IMG/VR virus record: IMGVR_UViG_3300042306_000111 | Span: 1-22,900 of that record | Reading direction: 5' to 3' (one strand) | Length of the DNA stretch: 22,900 nt | From: a virus | Translations under genes and position numbers: made by a program | Part shown: positions 5,971-21,980 of the stretch, piece after piece | Numbering within the stretch: the stretch's first letter is position 1 | Layout: each line of letters opens with the position of its first letter | The notes under the pieces: generated by a model | What the model was told of the DNA's origin: nothing | Database searches by the model: none | The model's input: the letters and a program-made list of their open reading frames with translations, nothing else

Positions 5971-6956
5971 AATTACTGATACTTACGGACGGAATGAATG
6001 GTGTAGTTTACCACCGATTATTCACGCCACACTTACGGATGCAACTTGACGGACAAGCGGATGTCAGCGTTTGCCAATCACAAGAGGAATGGCTCACACT
6101 TGACTACACCCAATTTGATGTGATCATCTTCTCACGATGGCTTGGTACAAAGCATTATGATGTGTTAAAAAAGATTGCTGATTCAGGCACTCCCTATGTT
6201 GTGGACATTGACGATTATTGGGTGCTTCCAAAATACAACCCGGCATATTGGAACTATCGCAAAGGAATCAAGCAAGGTGTAAAGGATGCCATCAATTACG
6301 CTGATGCGGTAATCACTACAACTCCAGCACTCGCCAAAGAGATTCGGCAGATCAACGAGAATGTGACTGTTGTTTCCAACTGCCTTGACCTAACCCACAA
6401 ACAATGGGAAGCCCAACCACAACCAAGAACGGACAAAATCAAAGTCGGATGGGTTGGTGGAGTTACACACGAGGAGGACTTGAAGCTCATTGCTGAGGAG
6501 ATCAAAGGAATGGACATTGAGTTCTACATCTGCGGTTATACACCAGGAGAGATTTGGAATCGGATTGCCAAGAGTATGCCTGATGCTAAGATTGTGGAAG
6601 GCACAACCGTGTTTGAATACGGTGAGGTGTACAAGCACTTTGACATCGTGGTCGCACCCTTGCAAAATACCAAGTTTAACAACTGCAAATCGGAACTGAA
6701 GATACTGGAAGCGAGTGCCTACAAAAAGCCAATCATTTGTTCTGCCGTCTTGCCTTACCTGTATCACACCGCAAACGATGGGGTGCTATTTCTTCCACGC
6801 AACCAATGGAGATCAGGCATTCAGAAACTGATTGATGCCGGTCACGGAGTTCGTCAGTCAATGGGTCAAAGCAACTACGACTACTGCAACAAGCATCACA
6901 ACCTTGCACTCCACAACTTGACGAGAATGTCGGTGTATCAAAGCTTATGCAAATAA
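5967..6956 (+). CDS. Glycosyltransferase, GT-B fold (GT4-like)
   Basis: A 329-residue protein with two Rossmann-like halves. The N-terminal half includes VVYHRL (about 13-18), FSRWLG, and VDIDDYWVLP (about 78-87), then ADAVITTTPALAKEI (about 112-126), typical of GT4-like enzymes. The second half starts at IKVGWVGG (about 158-165) and holds FDIVVAPLQNTKFNNCKSEL (about 224-243) and ILEASAYKKPII, the donor-sugar binding E-x-x-A-x-x-x-P arrangement. It overlaps the upstream GT by four bases and the large terminase start by ten. The substrate is unknown. A functional pair with the preceding enzyme is inferred from coupling. Confidence 0.85.
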   Translation: MKLLILTDGMNGVVYHRLFTPHLRMQLDGQADVSVCQSQEEWLTLDYTQFDVIIFSRWLGTKHYDVLKKIADSGTPYVVDIDDYWVLPKYNPAYWNYRKGIKQGVKDAINYADAVITTTPALAKEIRQINENVTVVSNCLDLTHKQWEAQPQPRTDKIKVGWVGGVTHEEDLKLIAEEIKGMDIEFYICGYTPGEIWNRIAKSMPDAKIVEGTTVFEYGEVYKHFDIVVAPLQNTKFNNCKSELKILEASAYKKPIICSAVLPYLYHTANDGVLFLPRNQWRSGIQKLIDAGHGVRQSMGQSNYDYCNKHHNLALHNLTRMSVYQSLCK

Positions 6957-8134
6957 ACTACACACGACCATATCTAACCAACTACCAAAAGGACATCCTT
7001 GACTGCGATGCCCGTTTCACTATTACGGCTGCGAGTACCAAGACAGGCAAGACCGCATCACATATCATTTGGCTCTTTGAACAAGCACTCCAATGCAAAG
7101 ATGGTCAGTCGGTGTGGTGGGTTGCTCCAGTTTACCAACAAGCGGAGATTGCATTCCGAAGGATGAAGAACCAAGTCACGGACAAGAACTTCTTTATCAG
7201 CAACGAAACAAAACTATTGTTGACCTTGCCAACGGGATCACGGATTGAGTTCAAGTCAGGTGAGAAGCCGGACAACCTTTATGGTGATGATGTCTATGCT
7301 GCCGTGATTGACGAGGCATCAAGGATGCGTGAGGAATCGTGGTACGCACTGCGTTCAACTTTGACTGCAACACAAGGCAAATGCAAACTGATCGGGAATG
7401 TCAAAGGCAAGAAGAATTGGTTCTACAAATTAGGTGAGAGAGCAAGGCAAGGAGAAGCCGAATACAAGTATTTCAAAATAACGGCATACGATGCAGCAAG
7501 GGAAGGCATCATCTCGGAGAAAGAGATTGAACAAGCCAAGCGTGATCTACCTGATTATGTCTTTCGTGAACTCTACCTTGCAGAACCAGCAGATGACAAG
7601 TCCAATCCGTTCGGCTTGGATGCAATCCGCAAATGTTACCGACCAATATCATCAATGCCGGTTGTTGCTTGGGGAGTGGATTTGGCAAAATACTCGGATT
7701 ACACGGTGATAATCGGACTGGATGCAAACAACTGTGTGTGTTTCTGCGAGAGATTCCAAGCGGATTGGTCAGTCACTCAAGCGAGGATTGTAAAACTGAT
7801 TGGCAACACACCATCGTTTGTGGATTCAACCGGGGTTGGAGATCCTATCGTTGAACAACTCCAGCGACTTTGTCAAAGAGTCAAGGGATTCAAGTTCACA
7901 TCGCAAAGCAAACAACAGTTGATTGAAGGACTCGTGATGTCGGTGCAACAAACCGATGTCTTTTTCCCTGAAGAACCGATTGGCTCGGAGATGGAGAACT
8001 TTGAATTTGAGTACACAAGAACGGGTGTGCGATATACTGCACCGCCCGGTCTACACGATGACTGTGTAATGGCTCTTGCACTTGCCGTTGATTGCAAAGC
8101 CCACAATAGACCAGGCACTTTTTACTTCGCATAA
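6947..8134 (+). CDS. terL: Terminase large subunit (ATPase and nuclease)
   Basis: A 395-residue packaging motor that pumps DNA into proheads and cuts it. Walker A is AASTKTGKT (28-36). Walker B is VYAAVIDEAS with Asp122-Glu123. A coupling-type segment CKLIGNVKG is at about 136-144. The RNase-H-like nuclease begins at WGVDLAKYSDYT (Asp245), continues with FVDSTGVGDP (Asp293), and ends with HDDCVMALALA (His370, Asp371-372), giving the three acidic sites. The length is normal for the short T4/Terminase_6-like class. The ATG lies inside the end of the glycosyltransferase gene. Directly downstream come tail genes rather than a portal gene. Confidence 0.93.
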   Translation: MQINYTRPYLTNYQKDILDCDARFTITAASTKTGKTASHIIWLFEQALQCKDGQSVWWVAPVYQQAEIAFRRMKNQVTDKNFFISNETKLLLTLPTGSRIEFKSGEKPDNLYGDDVYAAVIDEASRMREESWYALRSTLTATQGKCKLIGNVKGKKNWFYKLGERARQGEAEYKYFKITAYDAAREGIISEKEIEQAKRDLPDYVFRELYLAEPADDKSNPFGLDAIRKCYRPISSMPVVAWGVDLAKYSDYTVIIGLDANNCVCFCERFQADWSVTQARIVKLIGNTPSFVDSTGVGDPIVEQLQRLCQRVKGFKFTSQSKQQLIEGLVMSVQQTDVFFPEEPIGSEMENFEFEYTRTGVRYTAPPGLHDDCVMALALAVDCKAHNRPGTFYFA

Positions 8135-8135
8135 T

Positions 8136-8696
8136 ATGAATTGGAAAAACATAACCATCCACCAACTGCAAGAGATTCACTCTTGTCGTGATATGTCTGA
8201 CCTTGAGAGGCAGATGAACATCCTTGCCATTGCTTTGAATCTTTCAATGGATGAGGTAGAATCAATGACCCTTGACAAGCTAACAAACGAGTTTGCAAAG
8301 TTGTCCTTCTTAAATGACCTACCCAAAGCACCCATTCAATTTATGTTCAAACTGCGTGGTCGTTACTTCCGATTAGCCAAAACGCCAAACGAGATGTGTG
8401 GTCACCACTTCATCGAACTCCAGCAAGTATTCAACGGAGATGTCATTGAGTCGCTGAATAAGATTGTTGCCTTGCTTTCGGTTGAGGTGGATTTCTTTGG
8501 AAGGAACAAGAAGGTCGTTGATGCTCAGGCACACTATGAGGATAAATGTGAGTTGATGATGCACTTGCCTGTTCCGCTTCCGTACACTTATGCTCTTTTT
8601 TTTTTGGAAGTTTATCCCGAATTATTGAAAAATATCCTTTGCTCTTTGAAGGAGGAGATGAAGGAGATGACCGAGCAGTTGACCAAAGCCCAATAG
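8136..8696 (+). CDS. Tail assembly chaperone, zero-frame product (G-like)
   Basis: The ATG at 8136, one base after the terminase stop, is preferred to an in-frame ATG at 8076 inside that gene; it gives 186 residues starting MNWKNITIHQLQEI. The N-terminal DLERQMNILAIALNLS...ESMTLDKL pattern, the middle FRLAKTP, and ALFFLEVYPELL near the end resemble tail assembly chaperones of Bacteroidota phages, which hold the tape measure protein during tail tube growth. The gene sits four genes ahead of the tape measure. At residues 154-157 the DNA has a T10 run; a -1 slip there leads into the next frame and would give a fusion of about 253 residues. The zero frame continues 30 codons past the run to its own stop. 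Confidence 0.7.
   Translation: MNWKNITIHQLQEIHSCRDMSDLERQMNILAIALNLSMDEVESMTLDKLTNEFAKLSFLNDLPKAPIQFMFKLRGRYFRLAKTPNEMCGHHFIELQQVFNGDVIESLNKIVALLSVEVDFFGRNKKVVDAQAHYEDKCELMMHLPVPLPYTYALFFLEVYPELLKNILCSLKEEMKEMTEQLTKAQ
8596..8605 (+). promoter_or_regulatory. Candidate -1 ribosomal frameshift site (T10)
   Basis: Ten T in the zero frame read as ctT TTT TTT TTG. Both T_TTT_TTT (8597-8603) and T_TTT_TTG (8600-8606) allow both tRNAs to re-pair after a -1 slip. The -1 frame is open from 8552 to 8893 and its first possible start is a TTG at 8639, with no ATG until about 8762. This matches the G/GT system of tail chaperones. A purine-rich GGAGGAGATGAAGGAG stretch follows about 45 bases downstream. 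Polymerase slippage or a sequencing indel in the homopolymer are alternatives. Confidence 0.6.
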
Positions 8697-8896
8697 TTTG
8701 GCTGGAGATAGTTGACAAGATTGTCAAAGGTGATCGCACCAAATGGGATTTCATACTGGAGATGCCGTTGATTGAGTTCTTGAATTCAATGGCATTCTAC
8801 AAAGCCAAGACCAAAGAACGGCAGAAGCGTTTGGAGGATGCTGCCGGGAAAGGATTCAATCCCTACATCGTTGCTTGTCTGAACGAGATGATTTGA
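8603..8896 (+). CDS. Tail assembly chaperone, frameshifted C-terminal part (T-like)
   Basis: This is the -1 frame downstream of the T10 run, about 97 codons. It begins F-G-S-L-S-R-I-I-E-K-Y-P-L-L-F and goes on to VWLEIVDKIVKGDRTKWD, PLIEFLNSMAFYKAKTKER and a basic end. The W..I...A/V.GD......LP..EFLN pattern is what I expect of the T-like part of tail chaperones, which contacts tail tube subunits. If translated alone it would need the TTG at 8639, which would cut off the IIEKYP helix. The lack of an ATG and the continuity of the frame to the slip site favour a fusion with the preceding gene. Confidence 0.6.
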   Translation, partial: FGSLSRIIEKYPLLFEGGDEGDDRAVDQSPIVWLEIVDKIVKGDRTKWDFILEMPLIEFLNSMAFYKAKTKERQKRLEDAAGKGFNPYIVACLNEMI

Positions 8897-10060: not shown

Positions 10061-12789
10061 TCAGGTTACTTGTCAATAACTCACCAGTTGACCTATCGGC
10101 TAACTTTGACATTCTCATCTCCAAGTCAATTGCTGACATCAAGTCACCTGAAACAAGGTCAAGTGAGTGGACAAAGACGGTTGTGATTCCTGGTACTCGT
10201 GCAAACAACAAGTTATTTGGTCACATCTTTGAGGTTGAACAAACCATTCAAGGAACTACGCAGTTTGCACCCGATTTCAATCCGAATAAGAAAGCGGATG
10301 TCGTGGTGTTGCTTGATGAGATTGAGCAGATGCGTGGATTCATCAGGTTGATTCAAATCAATGTGCTGGATTCAACGGACATCCAATATGAATGTTCACT
10401 ACACGGACAAACGGCAGATCTATTCACGACCATCGCAGACCGAAAATTGAATGTATTAGAATTTAGCGAGTACAATCACTCCTTGTCTTCAGGCAACATC
10501 TTTGATTCGTGGGATACAAGCATTGTCAAGAACGGAAGCTCACAGGCTTTTGCTTATGGTGAGGGGTATGTGTATTCAATGATTGACAAAGGTCATGTCA
10601 GAAGTATTGCATATTGGCAGTACAACGAACTCACACCTTGTCTTTATGCCAAGACCATCATTGACAAGATATTCACAAACGCTGGGTATTCATACACCAA
10701 CGATTCCTTCTTTAATACTGACCGATTCAAGAGGTTGATTGTGCCACCACCAAACGGATTGATTGCATCGTCTACGCAATTGACAAGCCGATTGTTTTTG
10801 GCAAGTCGGTTGACAACCTCGCAATCATTGCCTTTGGGAACTACGCTGATATTCAACAACGATACAAGCGGTGGGGCTTTTGACAATGGTGCGAACTACA
10901 ACCCCACTACTGGTGCTTATACTGTCCCCGTTGGTGGTACTTATTCTTTCTTCTTGGGATTGGGTATGACCTTGACACTTGATCCTTCATACCGCCCAGT
11001 ATCTCAAGCGGAGATAGACATCAACATTGGGATGTATGTCGATGGAGTTTTGCAATCAACAAAGTACATTTCAGTTGATCCAAATGCAATGCCATCTTCG
11101 TTGGACTACGGGTTTACAAATGTTGCACTTTCCACCAGCGATGTTGTGACTTTTAAGTTAGCACAAGTATACGATTGGGCTGATCAGTACACATTGACAA
11201 ATGCGGATTTCACATTAAATCTAACTGTCGGTTCAACGATTCAGAATGACATTACCGCTTACACCTTCCAGTATGGGGAAACCGTTGATTTCGGAATCTT
11301 CTTTAATACGGAAGTTAAGCAGAGTGAGATGCTGATGTCGTTTGTCAAGATGTTCAACTTATACATTGAGCCAAGCCAAGACCAACCAAAGGTTCTGAGG
11401 ATTGTTCCCCGTGACGATTTCTACAACGGAGTGAATGTGGATTGGACAAAGAAGTTGGACTACTCCCAACCCGTTGAGATTATTCCAATGGGTGAATTAG
11501 ATGCGAATCCTTATGTCTTTACTTACAAACAAGGAAAGGATGATGGAAATGTAAGCTACCAGGAGAACTATCAAACCACCTACGGACAAAGAACCTATCA
11601 GGTAGACAACGATTTTGTCAAAAGTGAAAAGAAAATTGAGATTGTTTTTGTACCTACGCAAATCAGGAACTACGACATTGGACAAAAGAACCTTGTGTTG
11701 TCAGCGGTTGAGGGCAAAGATGATGGAGATTTGAGGGTATTATACTACGGTGGTTTGACAAATGGTGTAAGTGTGCGATTCCTTCCATCATTTGCTCGTA
11801 CTTTTTCCTTGAGTGCGCAGAGAGTGAAGACAGCAATTCCCTTGACAATTCATTATGATTCACTTTCAAACCCTACAATTGACCTTTTGTTTGGAATGCC
11901 CAGAGAAGTGGGTATCGGTGCAGGATACAATTACACCAATTCAAACCTTGTCACTAACTACTACTACCGATTCATCACCGAGATCACCAATAAGAACTCC
12001 AAGATTGTAAGAGCTTATTTCAGAATTACGCCATCGGATTGGTTCAACTTGCGATTTAGCAATTTGTATTTCTTTGAAGGACAATACTGGAGATTGAACA
12101 AGGTCAACGATTACAATCCGGTTGAAGAAGGTGTTTATGAGTGTGAATTCCTTTTGGCTCAATTCATTCCACCAGCGGCAATCACGATCAAAAAAATGGG
12201 TGCTGGAACTGCTCAAGGGTCGCACACCGATGTCTATGGTGATGTGTATCCCGGTGGTCAATTTCCAATCAAACCTGGTATTAAAGGGGTTAGCGTTGGA
12301 ACAAGCGAAGGAAGTGGTGTTTTTGTTGGTGAAAACTTCAGCGGAAACGGCATTAACAATAGTGGATTTGGATCAACAAACATTCATTATCCTAATGGGG
12401 TTGATGGGTCGGTTGTTCTTGTTTCAAATGATTTTGAACCTACCAAACCTGATACACTCTATATCGGAAACTTTGAGATGTATCCAAACTATTTGAGTGG
12501 TGGTGCAGTTACAACCGTATCAGCAAACTATTCGGCAACAAAATATGATTGGTTAATTATAGCGTCAACAACTGCCGGGAATTTTACCATCACTCTACCT
12601 GACCCAAGCGGATTAAGTGGCAAAACTTGGATAATCAAAAAGCCTTTGGCTGGTCATCAAGTGACCATTGACACGGCAACTGCTGCTCAAATAGACGGCA
12701 GCGACACGCACACACAAACAGCACATCATTCATACGATGTCATCACTACTGATGGCGTTCAATTTTACATAATAGCAGAAGGACACTAA
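10057..12789 (+). CDS. Large tail/baseplate protein
   Basis: A 910-residue protein, the largest in the window. The N-terminus has IRLLVNNSPVDLSANFDILI and then ADIKSPETRSSEWTKTVVIP (28-47), a pattern I recall from large tail proteins of Bacteroidota phages. Next come FNPNKKADVVVL and a mixed beta domain, with a beta-rich region around 240-380. LRIVPRDDFYNGVNVDWTKK lies at about 448-467, and the C-terminal 90 residues (TTAGNFTITLPDPSGLSGKTW onward) look like a small beta domain found at tips of phage fibres. It probably forms the central baseplate or tail tip, with a receptor-facing end. It overlaps the tape-measure start by one base (TAATG). Confidence 0.65.
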   Translation: MIRLLVNNSPVDLSANFDILISKSIADIKSPETRSSEWTKTVVIPGTRANNKLFGHIFEVEQTIQGTTQFAPDFNPNKKADVVVLLDEIEQMRGFIRLIQINVLDSTDIQYECSLHGQTADLFTTIADRKLNVLEFSEYNHSLSSGNIFDSWDTSIVKNGSSQAFAYGEGYVYSMIDKGHVRSIAYWQYNELTPCLYAKTIIDKIFTNAGYSYTNDSFFNTDRFKRLIVPPPNGLIASSTQLTSRLFLASRLTTSQSLPLGTTLIFNNDTSGGAFDNGANYNPTTGAYTVPVGGTYSFFLGLGMTLTLDPSYRPVSQAEIDINIGMYVDGVLQSTKYISVDPNAMPSSLDYGFTNVALSTSDVVTFKLAQVYDWADQYTLTNADFTLNLTVGSTIQNDITAYTFQYGETVDFGIFFNTEVKQSEMLMSFVKMFNLYIEPSQDQPKVLRIVPRDDFYNGVNVDWTKKLDYSQPVEIIPMGELDANPYVFTYKQGKDDGNVSYQENYQTTYGQRTYQVDNDFVKSEKKIEIVFVPTQIRNYDIGQKNLVLSAVEGKDDGDLRVLYYGGLTNGVSVRFLPSFARTFSLSAQRVKTAIPLTIHYDSLSNPTIDLLFGMPREVGIGAGYNYTNSNLVTNYYYRFITEITNKNSKIVRAYFRITPSDWFNLRFSNLYFFEGQYWRLNKVNDYNPVEEGVYECEFLLAQFIPPAAITIKKMGAGTAQGSHTDVYGDVYPGGQFPIKPGIKGVSVGTSEGSGVFVGENFSGNGINNSGFGSTNIHYPNGVDGSVVLVSNDFEPTKPDTLYIGNFEMYPNYLSGGAVTTVSANYSATKYDWLIIASTTAGNFTITLPDPSGLSGKTWIIKKPLAGHQVTIDTATAAQIDGSDTHTQTAHHSYDVITTDGVQFYIIAEGH

Positions 12790-14741
12790 TGGCACTAAAC
12801 GCAACGATTGACTTAACCGTCAAAAAGCCCGACTTCAAATCAATGAAGGCGGAAATAAAGGAACTGACCATCGCAGCTCAACAGGCGGTGATGCAGTTCG
12901 GTGAGTTCTCACCTGAAGCAAAAAAGGCGGAAGCCACACTTGCATCAGCTCGTGATAAAATGGATGACTTTAATGATCGTGTGAAAGCGGTCAATCCCGA
13001 TAAGTTTTCACAATTGAACACAGTTGTTTCCGGTGTTGCCAATGGATTCCAAGCAGCACAAGGTGCGATGGCATTGTTCGGAAACGAATCAAAGGACTTT
13101 GAGAAGACGATGATAAAGTTGCAAGGTGCAATGGCATTGACACAAGGTCTTGAAGGATTAGGAAAAGTTCAACAACAATTTCGGGCAATTTTTTCAAGTA
13201 TTGCTGTTGGTGCAAAACAAGCATTTGCAGCAATTAGAGTAGGTATCGGCTCAACAGGTATCGGATTGATTCTTGTTGCACTTGGGGCAATCGTTGCTTA
13301 TTGGGATGAGATTAAAGAGGCGGTGACTGGTGTCGATTCAGAGCAAAAGAAACTTTTAACTGATTCAAAAGCACAAGAAAAAGTTGAACAAGATAAACTT
13401 GATACATTAAACGGACAAGATAGCATCTTGAAGTTGCAAGGATTGACCGAAGAAGAAATTCTCAAACTTAAAATTCAACAAACGAGTGCGGTCATCACCC
13501 AACTTGAGGCACAATTATCCGCCCAAGAAACGATGAAACAAGCTCAGATGGATGCTGCTCAAAGAAACCAAGATATCCTCAAAGGAGTAATTGAGTTCTT
13601 GACATTTCCTCTTACAATGTTGCTCAAGACAATTGACAATGTTGGAAAAGCATTGGGACAAGATTTCGGATTGCAAGATGCATTTAGTGGCACTTTGGCA
13701 AAAATGGTGTTTGATCCAAAGTCAGTAGAAAAGGAAGCCGATGCAGCAATCGCAGAAACCAAGAAACAACTGAACACACTCAAGAACACAAACGCCGGAT
13801 ATCAACTTTCAATCAATGCCATTCATACAAAAGCAGCGGAGGACAAAAAGAAGATTAACGATGATGCTGCACAAAAAGAATTGGATGATGCTGCTAAACT
13901 TGCTGATGAGAAAAAGAAAATCACCGATGATACATTGGCAGCGGAAGCATCCGCAAGAGATGCAGCACGACAAAAAGAACTGGCATTGCTGACTGATGAA
14001 TCGGATAGAATTCAAAAAGAATATGAGAACAAATTAGCCGCACTTGAAGAAGCAAAAGCAGCGGAACTGAAAGCCATCGGTGACAATGCAGAAGCCAAAG
14101 CAGCCATTGAGCGAAAGTATAACGACTTGCAAATCGTGGCAACTGCGGAAGTGGATGCAGCAGAACTCAAACTTGCAGATGATAAAAGATTAAAGCAAAA
14201 GGAGATTGATGATCAACAAGCAGCCGACCAGGCAAAAGCAACTGCCGACCAAATTGCAAACGAGGAAGCATTGGCAGCAGCAAAAGACCAAATGATCGGA
14301 GCAACGAGGGATGCCGTATCGGCACTTGGTGCAATGTTCAAAGAAGGTAGTGATGCAGCAAAAGCCGCAGCATTGGTTGACATTGCAATCGGTACTGGTG
14401 TTGGATTTATCAATGCATTAGACATCGCACAAAAAGGAGCAAAGGCAACAGGACCAGCAGCACCATTTGCATTCCCGATATTCTACGCATCGCAAATTGC
14501 TGCGGTGTTGGGAGCAGCAAACAAGGCAAGAGCAATCTTAAAAAGTGGCAAAGGCGGTGGGTCAGCATCAGCACCATCACAAATGGGTGGAGGTGGAGCT
14601 CCGCAAATGGCAGCACCACAAGTAAGCTCAACACTTCCAACAGTAAGCGGATTTGATACCAAAGTATTTGTGACTGAAGGTGACATCCGCAGAACAAGTG
14701 ATCGTGTAGATTCCACCAAAAAAGTATCCGTTGTAAAATAA
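12789..14741 (+). CDS. Tail tape measure protein
   Basis: A 650-residue protein that sets tail length and is expelled ahead of the DNA. It has an alpha-helical N-terminal part (1-120), a hydrophobic stretch GIGLILVALGAIVAYW at about 157-172, a long Ala/Lys/Glu/Asp-rich coiled coil (about 340-500), a second weakly hydrophobic Ala-rich part (about 510-595), and a Gly/Ser/Pro-rich end (about 596-625). This combination is the usual tape-measure layout. By the general rule of about 0.15 nm per residue, it would specify a tail of roughly 100 nm, at the short end for siphophages; this is an inference. It follows the baseplate gene at a TAATG junction and is followed by head genes. Confidence 0.82.
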   Translation: MALNATIDLTVKKPDFKSMKAEIKELTIAAQQAVMQFGEFSPEAKKAEATLASARDKMDDFNDRVKAVNPDKFSQLNTVVSGVANGFQAAQGAMALFGNESKDFEKTMIKLQGAMALTQGLEGLGKVQQQFRAIFSSIAVGAKQAFAAIRVGIGSTGIGLILVALGAIVAYWDEIKEAVTGVDSEQKKLLTDSKAQEKVEQDKLDTLNGQDSILKLQGLTEEEILKLKIQQTSAVITQLEAQLSAQETMKQAQMDAAQRNQDILKGVIEFLTFPLTMLLKTIDNVGKALGQDFGLQDAFSGTLAKMVFDPKSVEKEADAAIAETKKQLNTLKNTNAGYQLSINAIHTKAAEDKKKINDDAAQKELDDAAKLADEKKKITDDTLAAEASARDAARQKELALLTDESDRIQKEYENKLAALEEAKAAELKAIGDNAEAKAAIERKYNDLQIVATAEVDAAELKLADDKRLKQKEIDDQQAADQAKATADQIANEEALAAAKDQMIGATRDAVSALGAMFKEGSDAAKAAALVDIAIGTGVGFINALDIAQKGAKATGPAAPFAFPIFYASQIAAVLGAANKARAILKSGKGGGSASAPSQMGGGGAPQMAAPQVSSTLPTVSGFDTKVFVTEGDIRRTSDRVDSTKKVSVVK

Positions 14742-20105: not shown

Positions 20106-20326
20106 TGATAGGTTACACACTTACACCCGAACAAAAGGATTTGATACAAGGGCAATACTACTCACCTTATCAGTTCTTTAATTGCGTTCAAGATATTAAC
20201 GGCGTTTGGTTTTTGTTCCTTAGCGATGAGGACAAGCCAGAAGTTCAAGCATCACAATACGCTTGGGTTCTAACCTTACCCCAATCCGAATACATCCCAC
20301 CACCACCACCACCATTTCCGATATGA
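20105..20326 (+). CDS. Small proline-tailed phage protein
   Basis: A 73-residue protein beginning one base inside the lectin-like gene stop (TAATG). It has TLTPEQKDLIQGQYYSPYQF (5-24), then FNCVQDINGVWFLFLSDED (about 24-42), an aromatic-rich beta part, and a proline run (PPPPPPFP) at the end. Very similar small proteins follow tail genes in Bacteroidota phages as I recall them; the function is unknown. The proline tail suggests contact with a partner. It overlaps the kinase ATG by four bases. Confidence 0.55.
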   Translation: MIGYTLTPEQKDLIQGQYYSPYQFFNCVQDINGVWFLFLSDEDKPEVQASQYAWVLTLPQSEYIPPPPPPFPI

Positions 20327-21546
20327 AACTAAGCATCCGTAGTTGGATTGCTTTGATAATTGCTGCGGTAATTATGCTGACCTTTCTTTCCGTGCAGTCC
20401 GCACTTGTTTTCAAATACATTGAGCCGACCTACACATCGGCTCTTTTTGGCTATTGGTCAATTATTGCCTTTATACCTTTTTTCTATTTCGTTGTGATTG
20501 AGTTCGTCAGAAAAGCACGACATAAATTCCAATCAATAGATGATACATTCAATGCCATTGATGCCAGTAATATCCTGTTAGAGTTTGACAAGGATGGCAC
20601 AATCACAAAAGCCAATCCAAAGTTCTACACAGTTCTCGGCTATGATGACATTATTGGACAATCGCACAAAGTTCTTGTTGCGGATTTTGTTCAATCACAA
20701 TGGCAGTCGTTTTGGAATGAGCTTAGAGTTGGCAGATTCAAGCAAGGAGAATATCAACGGCTCAAATCAGATGGCTCGGAGATTTGGCTATTCGGTAACT
20801 ACAACCCCATCAAAGATCCATACGGTGAAGTTTACAAAGTGATGCTGATTGCAACCGACATCACCGACAAGAAGATAATTGAAGCGGATGTAAACAAAAA
20901 GAATTCCTATTTGGAACACGCTGCGAAGATTCTAAGACACGATATGCACTCAGGAATCAACACATACATTCCTCGTGGTTTGAGTTCCTTAAAACGGAGA
21001 TTGTCTGAAGAGCAAATTAAGGACTTGAAGATTGATGCACCTTTGCGAATGATTGAAGAGGGATTGACCCACACGCAAAAAGTTTACAAGGGAGTGAAGG
21101 AATTCACCAACCTTGTGAAGGCAGATGCACAACTTGAAAAGAATGAGTTTGATCTGCGTGAAATCCTAATCAGTTACCTGAGCAGTACCAGTTACGAAAA
21201 GCAAGTTGTCATTGAAGAGCTGCCCATCATTGAAGTGAACGAGTCATTGTTTTGTACTGCCGTTGATAACCTAATCAGAAACGGGTTAAAGTACAACGAT
21301 AGTTCAACAAAGGTGATTCGCATATTTGCGGAGGACAACTATCTTTGCATCGTTGACAATGGTCGTGGAATGAGTCAAGAGGATTTGATTCAATGGTCGC
21401 AACCGTATAAACGAAAAGAAGGGCAGAAAGAAGCTGGAAGCGGATTGGGTTTGAACATTTGTATTGCGATAATGGATGAACACAAATTCCCGGTAACTGC
21501 TGAGAAATTAGAAATAGGTACAAAATTAAAGATAAAAATACGATGA
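20323..21546 (+). CDS. Membrane sensor histidine kinase with PAS domain
   Basis: A 407-residue kinase; the ATG at 20323 overlaps the upstream TGA. Two membrane helices (about 7-31 and 42-62) leave a periplasmic loop of only about ten residues, so sensing is probably by the cytoplasmic PAS domain (about 77-190, with LEFDKDGTITKANPKFYTVL and the end IATDITD). The phosphoacceptor box is AKILRHDMHSGIN with His206. The ATP domain has the N box NLIRNGLKYN (316-325), G1 DNGRGM (345-350) and G2 GSGLGLNI (372-379), so it is expected to be active. It is translationally coupled (ATGA) to a receiver protein. A complete kinase of this kind within a phage structural/lysis block is unusual. Confidence 0.9.
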   Translation: MKLSIRSWIALIIAAVIMLTFLSVQSALVFKYIEPTYTSALFGYWSIIAFIPFFYFVVIEFVRKARHKFQSIDDTFNAIDASNILLEFDKDGTITKANPKFYTVLGYDDIIGQSHKVLVADFVQSQWQSFWNELRVGRFKQGEYQRLKSDGSEIWLFGNYNPIKDPYGEVYKVMLIATDITDKKIIEADVNKKNSYLEHAAKILRHDMHSGINTYIPRGLSSLKRRLSEEQIKDLKIDAPLRMIEEGLTHTQKVYKGVKEFTNLVKADAQLEKNEFDLREILISYLSSTSYEKQVVIEELPIIEVNESLFCTAVDNLIRNGLKYNDSSTKVIRIFAEDNYLCIVDNGRGMSQEDLIQWSQPYKRKEGQKEAGSGLGLNICIAIMDEHKFPVTAEKLEIGTKLKIKIR

Positions 21547-21980
21547 TTGATTCCATATTGCTTGTAGATGACGAGGATTTATTCCACTTAGTTTTTGAAG
21601 ATTCTTGCTCGTTGCTGGACATCACACTTTCCCTCCAGAGTTTAACATCTTCAGACGAAGCCGACCGACTATTCAAGAAGTGGTTCAATGAAGGTCCTGT
21701 GGAAGATAGACCCGAATGCGTGTTTGTGGATTTGAACATCATCGGCAGTTCGTTTGATGGGATTGAGTTGATTAGAAAAATCAACACGGAGTACGGCAAC
21801 GGGGTTGTCATCGGAATCATCTCCAGTTCAGACGATAAACAAGAAATTGACAAGGCGAAATCCGTTGGAGCTCAGTTTTGGATTATTAAATCAGATGAGA
21901 TTGAGCCAAGATTGGAATCCTTTCGCAGAGATTATGAAGGGTACAAGAATAAAACTGCTCCGTTTAAGGTATACAAGTGA
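21543..21980 (+). CDS. Receiver-only response regulator
   Basis: A 145-residue CheY-like receiver domain. The acidic pocket LLVDDEDLF holds Asp9 and Asp10, the phosphoacceptor is Asp63 in VFVDLNI, the switch serine lies in GIISSSDD (94-96), and the conserved Lys is in WIIKSD (Lys116). An insertion of some residues around 47-57 (NEGPVEDRPE) lengthens the loop before the Asp63 strand. There is no output domain: the protein ends about 15 residues after the last expected helix. Its phosphorylation by the coupled kinase is inferred from the ATGA overlap. The output must therefore be through protein binding, with the next protein in line as a candidate partner. Confidence 0.88.
   Translation: MIDSILLVDDEDLFHLVFEDSCSLLDITLSLQSLTSSDEADRLFKKWFNEGPVEDRPECVFVDLNIIGSSFDGIELIRKINTEYGNGVVIGIISSSDDKQEIDKAKSVGAQFWIIKSDEIEPRLESFRRDYEGYKNKTAPFKVYK

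Follow-up and report, generated by a model that had tools for sequence, protein, structure and literature searches.

Reading frames at the locus

The window analysed here, the whole of a 22.9-kb virus record in IMG/VR, holds a gene of a freshwater phage in which two overlapping reading frames are connected by a homopolymeric T run (Table 1). The codons read in frame across this run are GCT CTT TTT TTT TTG GAA. In the -1 frame, no stop occurs between 8552 and the TGA at 8896, past the end of the 0 frame; a preliminary description of this DNA had stated that the downstream frame is open back through the T10 run and lies in the -1 register, and its coordinates and register are correct. Likewise, the lack of an ATG near the start of the downstream frame, which had also been noted there, was confirmed, the TTG at 8639 being the single common start codon before the downstream domain. 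A -1 shift is predicted to give a product of 253 aa (...YALFFFGSLSRIIEKYPLLF...CLNEMI), which would share its first 156 residues with the predicted 186-aa product of the 0 frame. The same description had regarded the run as a pure T10 without a classical heptamer. This was incorrect, since U_UUU_UUU, a heptamer of the X_XXY_YYZ type, lies within it in exact 0-frame register. About one T10 run is expected by chance in the window (mean of 1.05 in dinucleotide shuffles), and the rarity of the run by itself was therefore dropped as evidence. Accordingly, the significance of the site depends on its register, its conservation and the dual coding, all of which were tested.

Table 1. Coordinates of the overlapping reading frames, the slip site and neighbouring genes in the window.
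Feature	Position	Strand	Remarks
Terminase large subunit (TerL), direct upstream neighbour	6947..8134	+	phrog_2, E 8e-36; adjacent in every lineage checked
0-frame ORF, short product, probable tail assembly chaperone of gpG type	8136..8696	+	ATG 8136 to TAG 8696, 186 aa; in 116 distinct homologous genes
Overlap with both 0 and -1 frames open	8552..8696	+	dual coding from about 8603 (slip site) to 8696
T10 run	8596..8605	+	read directly; T10 in 35/35 distinct near-group genes, T9 or T6 in other lineages
U_UUU_UUU slippery heptamer, probable -1 shift site	8597..8603	+	exact 0-frame register
-1 extension, conserved helical T-like domain (WLEIVDKIVKGDRTKWDFILEMPLIEFLNSMAFYKAKTKER)	8603..8896	+	97 post-slip codons and TGA
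Tape measure protein, downstream of two intervening genes	12789..14741	+	phrog_24676, E 9e-14

Conservation of the slip site and selection on both frames

Homologues were drawn from viral contigs, and the removal of identical genes left 116 distinct complete genes. The -1 relation of the two parts is kept in all 116 of these, and in 113 of them a heptamer, either U_UUU_UUU or U_UUU_UUC, is in register with the 0 frame. The slip codons are CTT TTT TTT TTG in 35 distinct genes, CTT TTT TTT TCG in 32, GTT TTT TTT TCG in 25, TCT TTT TTC TTG in 21 and GTT TTT TCT TTG in three. The T run is T10, T9 or shorter among the homologues, with the differences arising by substitution; a change in run length that would fuse both frames was looked for and was found in none of the 116 genes. 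The 21 genes with TCT TTT TTC TTG belong to one lineage; their run is no longer than T6C, yet the heptamer U_UUU_UUC is retained. In the remaining three genes (L203, L204 and L205, e.g., L203:2957-2990) the codons GTT TTT TCT TTG provide the nonstandard heptamer U_UUU_UCU together with the same -1 ORF, and the shift may involve the P-site only. A fungal -1 site reported in a review, U_UUU_UCC, resembles this heptamer (PMC5009743).

Selection was assessed by simple within-lineage pairwise counts on related sequences, not by a formal likelihood test, and upstream of the slip site these counts gave a pS of 0.29-0.55 and a pN/pS of 0.05-0.14 for the 0 frame. In the overlap, the pS of the 0 frame falls to 0.05-0.16. 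The -1 frame has a pN/pS of 2-5 upstream of the slip site, as expected for non-coding sequence, and of 0.045-0.17 past the 0-frame stop, which corresponds to strong purifying selection. In a per-codon profile, synonymous variation drops to zero at the slip codons and at the codon that contributes the heptamer's first base, and it remains low throughout the overlap. An assembly or sequencing error, in which a homopolymer indel would have split a single true gene, has a negligible probability: homopolymers are error-prone in sequencing, but the 0-frame C-terminus is itself conserved (overlap pN/pS below 1), 35 distinct genes recovered by independent assemblies have T10, and T9 or T6 occurs with an identical frame relation in other lineages.

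The downstream domain might also be initiated independently within the overlap, so that two separate genes would be present. The TTG at 8639 would be available for this in the window, and gp39 of the Nonlabens phage P12024S, which is treated below, is annotated from an internal ATG overlapping the 0-frame stop. Nevertheless, in 77 of the 116 distinct genes the stretch of the -1 frame that separates the slip site from the domain contains neither ATG nor GTG nor TTG, which argues against independent initiation, while an ATG occurs there in only four, and no clear case of two ATG-started genes was found in the family of the window gene. Moreover, the dual-coding constraint reaches up to the slip site, upstream of any such start, and past that site the -1-frame residues are conserved from lineage to lineage. 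We consider a separate downstream gene very unlikely.

Distant relatives and the mode of slippage

A Foldseek search against viral protein models led to protein I6R9M9 of the Nonlabens phage P12024S, which was identified with gp38 of this cultured phage by its length of 175 aa. Like the window gene, gp38 directly follows TerL and has an ORF in the -1 frame, and its T9 run carries an in-register U_UUU_UUU. The differences comprise an identity of about 16% and the annotation as two hypothetical genes with an internal ATG in the overlap. The N parts of the two families were aligned by hhalign with a probability of 93.9 (E 1.5e-7) and the extensions by profile comparison with a probability of 96.4 (E 1.1e-9), with crossed controls at about 2%. 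Both parts of the P12024S locus are contained in PHROGs (gp38 as phrog_32199, gp39 as phrog_38404), where they are labelled as of unknown function. The separately annotated gp39 (L330:23663-23830) forms the terminal portion of gp38's -1 extension and is probably part of a mis-split frameshift gene. In the only cultured member found, the gene has been entered as two proteins of unknown function.

All 43 distinct sequences of gp38 relatives hold T_TTT_TTT in register, which argues for programmed -1 frameshifting and against a sequencing error. In all, some 160 related virus genes share this layout, which resembles how many tailed phages produce their tail assembly helper. The distal -1 extension has a pN/pS of 0.025-0.13 in three lineages of the P12024S family. 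In one family (L361-L393, e.g., L365), the 0 frame runs about 87 codons beyond the slip site and overlaps the -1 extension almost fully; its distal part lacks purifying selection (pN/pS above 2), and the -1 frame has a value of 0.025. With regard to the host of the wider family, P12024S points to Bacteroidetes. No prophage relatives of the window gene were confirmed among the genome contigs searched, and a tblastn comparison of the window proteins with INPHARED gave no match. The gp10 of Flavobacterium phage 6H, a weak BFVD match, was set aside; inspection revealed no slip site that could be used in a corresponding layout.

The proposal that -1 frameshifting joins the two frames agrees with the register, the conservation, the selection and the suppression of synonymous variation from the slip codon onward, and programmed -1 frameshifting at this locus is strongly supported by these sequence comparisons. 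Most ribosomes would read 8136-8696 and produce the 186-aa protein. A minority would slip by -1 on U_UUU_UUU (8597-8603), with two Phe-tRNAs re-pairing one base upstream, and would then translate on in the -1 frame up to 8896; the resulting 253-aa protein would carry a helical C-terminal domain. A counterargument is that A_AAA_AAG shifts more readily than U_UUU_UUU in E. coli, according to a review (PMC5009743).

The frame change might instead arise at the level of transcription, if the polymerase slipped on T9 or T10 and some mRNAs with one additional U or two fewer were translated normally into the -1 frame. A T9 or T10 tract is found in 92 of the 116 distinct genes as well as in 43 of 43 sequences of the distant family, and polymerases typically slip on long homopolymers. 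However, the T6C lineage (21 genes) and L203-L205 have only T6 with an unchanged frame layout, and the variation of tract length by substitution means that no fixed long run is maintained. The T6C lineage retains the exact -1 ribosomal heptamer U_UUU_UUC, which fits ribosomal better than polymerase slippage. Transcriptional slippage appears quite improbable, and ribosomal slippage is likely; both its ribosomal nature and its efficiency are inferred.

Possible stimulators of ribosomal -1 slippage were sought around the heptamer. No downstream pseudoknot or stem-loop stood out from shuffled sequences, and no covariation was seen, which weighs against the proposed slip. The single-sequence z-scores ranged from -1.1 to +0.5 and RNAalifold returned no covarying pairs, tests which are not pseudoknot-specific; they agree with the earlier remark that no strong pseudoknot is visible. 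Inspection by eye of the bases just upstream of the slip site revealed no purine-rich, Shine-Dalgarno-like stretch.

Function of the products and gene neighbourhood

Searches of Pfam and PHROG with 27 and 28 family members gave no convincing match and no tail-chaperone family, although the missing match is weak evidence as tail chaperones diverge fast. Scattered matches with E below 0.01 in single members (e.g., Ribonuc_2-5A, 3.7e-5) look spurious for such a phage protein and were set aside, and the Pfam matches of the window protein itself lie below the curated cut-offs. The PDB yielded zero matches by sequence and nothing significant by Foldseek. The AF2 model of the 0-frame product is mostly helical with middling confidence (pLDDT 69), and that of the -1 extension is helical as well (pLDDT 70.5). 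When the Foldseek PDB list was re-aligned, the HK97 tail assembly chaperone gp13 (2ob9) ranked first for residues 1-63 of the 0-frame model. This likeness is weak and below the reliable level, with a Z of only 3.0, an rmsd of 3.3 over 58 residues and 5% identity.

A close parallel is given by gpG and gpGT of phage lambda, which also consist of a short 0-frame product and a longer -1 fusion sharing its N-terminal part, and whose gene is likewise situated on the same strand upstream of the tape measure gene. The lambda slippery site is GGGAAAG, which differs from the U_UUU_UUU/C found here. Further differences are that the sequences of the present products could not be linked to any named chaperone family, and that the gene immediately follows TerL and is separated by two genes from the tape measure gene. 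The G/GT mechanism of lambda has been described (PMC5009743); by analogy with it, the common part would bind the tape measure protein and the extension would recruit the major tail protein.

The position before the tape measure gene, on which the preliminary description had relied, was upheld only in part. The tape measure gene is located downstream on the same strand, but it starts 3.9 kb away, after genes for proteins of 377 and 910 aa, and TerL is the adjoining gene. The lambda-type position, after the major tail protein and directly before the tape measure gene, does not apply here, and the case for a chaperone role is thus built on the architecture, the class of fold and a weak structural likeness. 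The order of TerL, frameshift gene, 377-aa gene and 910-aa gene is conserved in the lineages checked.

The adjacency to TerL in all lineages checked and in P12024S, together with the lack of a chaperone family matched by sequence, would also suit a real frameshift whose products have another assembly or packaging role tied to the adjacent terminase. This is rather unlikely, since the two-product -1 architecture, the helical extension and the tape measure gene downstream on the same strand fit the G/GT pattern, and since HK97 gp13 ranks first structurally, albeit weakly. A broader conception would see in these genes a wide, unannotated, TerL-adjacent superfamily comprising freshwater phages and a marine lineage of flavobacterial phages, in which a homopolymeric U_UUU_UUU without an RNA stimulator is used, possibly by ribosomal and transcriptional slippage together, and in which the role of the two products in assembly either differs from that of lambda-type chaperones or is ancestral to it. 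This conception is doubtful. We consider with good confidence that the gene encodes a G/GT-type product pair generated by a ribosomal -1 slip, with a likely role as tail assembly chaperone. The chaperone identity, which the preliminary description had already proposed, is probable, as the gene position, the two-product architecture, the helical fold and the weak HK97 gp13 match suggest, and the label is to be read as inferred.

On this reading of the products as probable chaperones, a large environmental phage gene family would be added to the known tail chaperones made by frameshifting. The frameshift was retained across lineages at about 16% protein identity, with the slippery site having drifted between U_UUU_UUU and U_UUU_UUC. 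For the annotation of such genomes, it follows as a rule that the gene after TerL should be read through T9 or T10 in the -1 frame. Moreover, the cultured phage P12024S makes the prediction directly testable.

Further observations concern the surroundings of the gene. Downstream of the -1 ORF, the gap to the 377-aa gene measures about 30 bases in the window and reaches more than 1 kb in relatives (L071, L077, L203-L205 and L229); this variable length suggests an insertion hot spot. No portal family was matched among the window proteins scanned. Between 10057 and 16850, the tape measure gene precedes protease and putative capsid genes, an order which is unusual for a siphophage. A C5 cytosine methylase gene (1570-2667) is overlapped in another frame by a long ORF (1700-2620, 306 aa), which is purely mechanical. 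Finally, a histidine kinase with PAS and HATPase domains is encoded at 20263-21546, and the next gene, which overlaps its end, codes for a response-regulator receiver protein (21543-21980); the region 20263-21980 represents a phage-encoded two-component pair.
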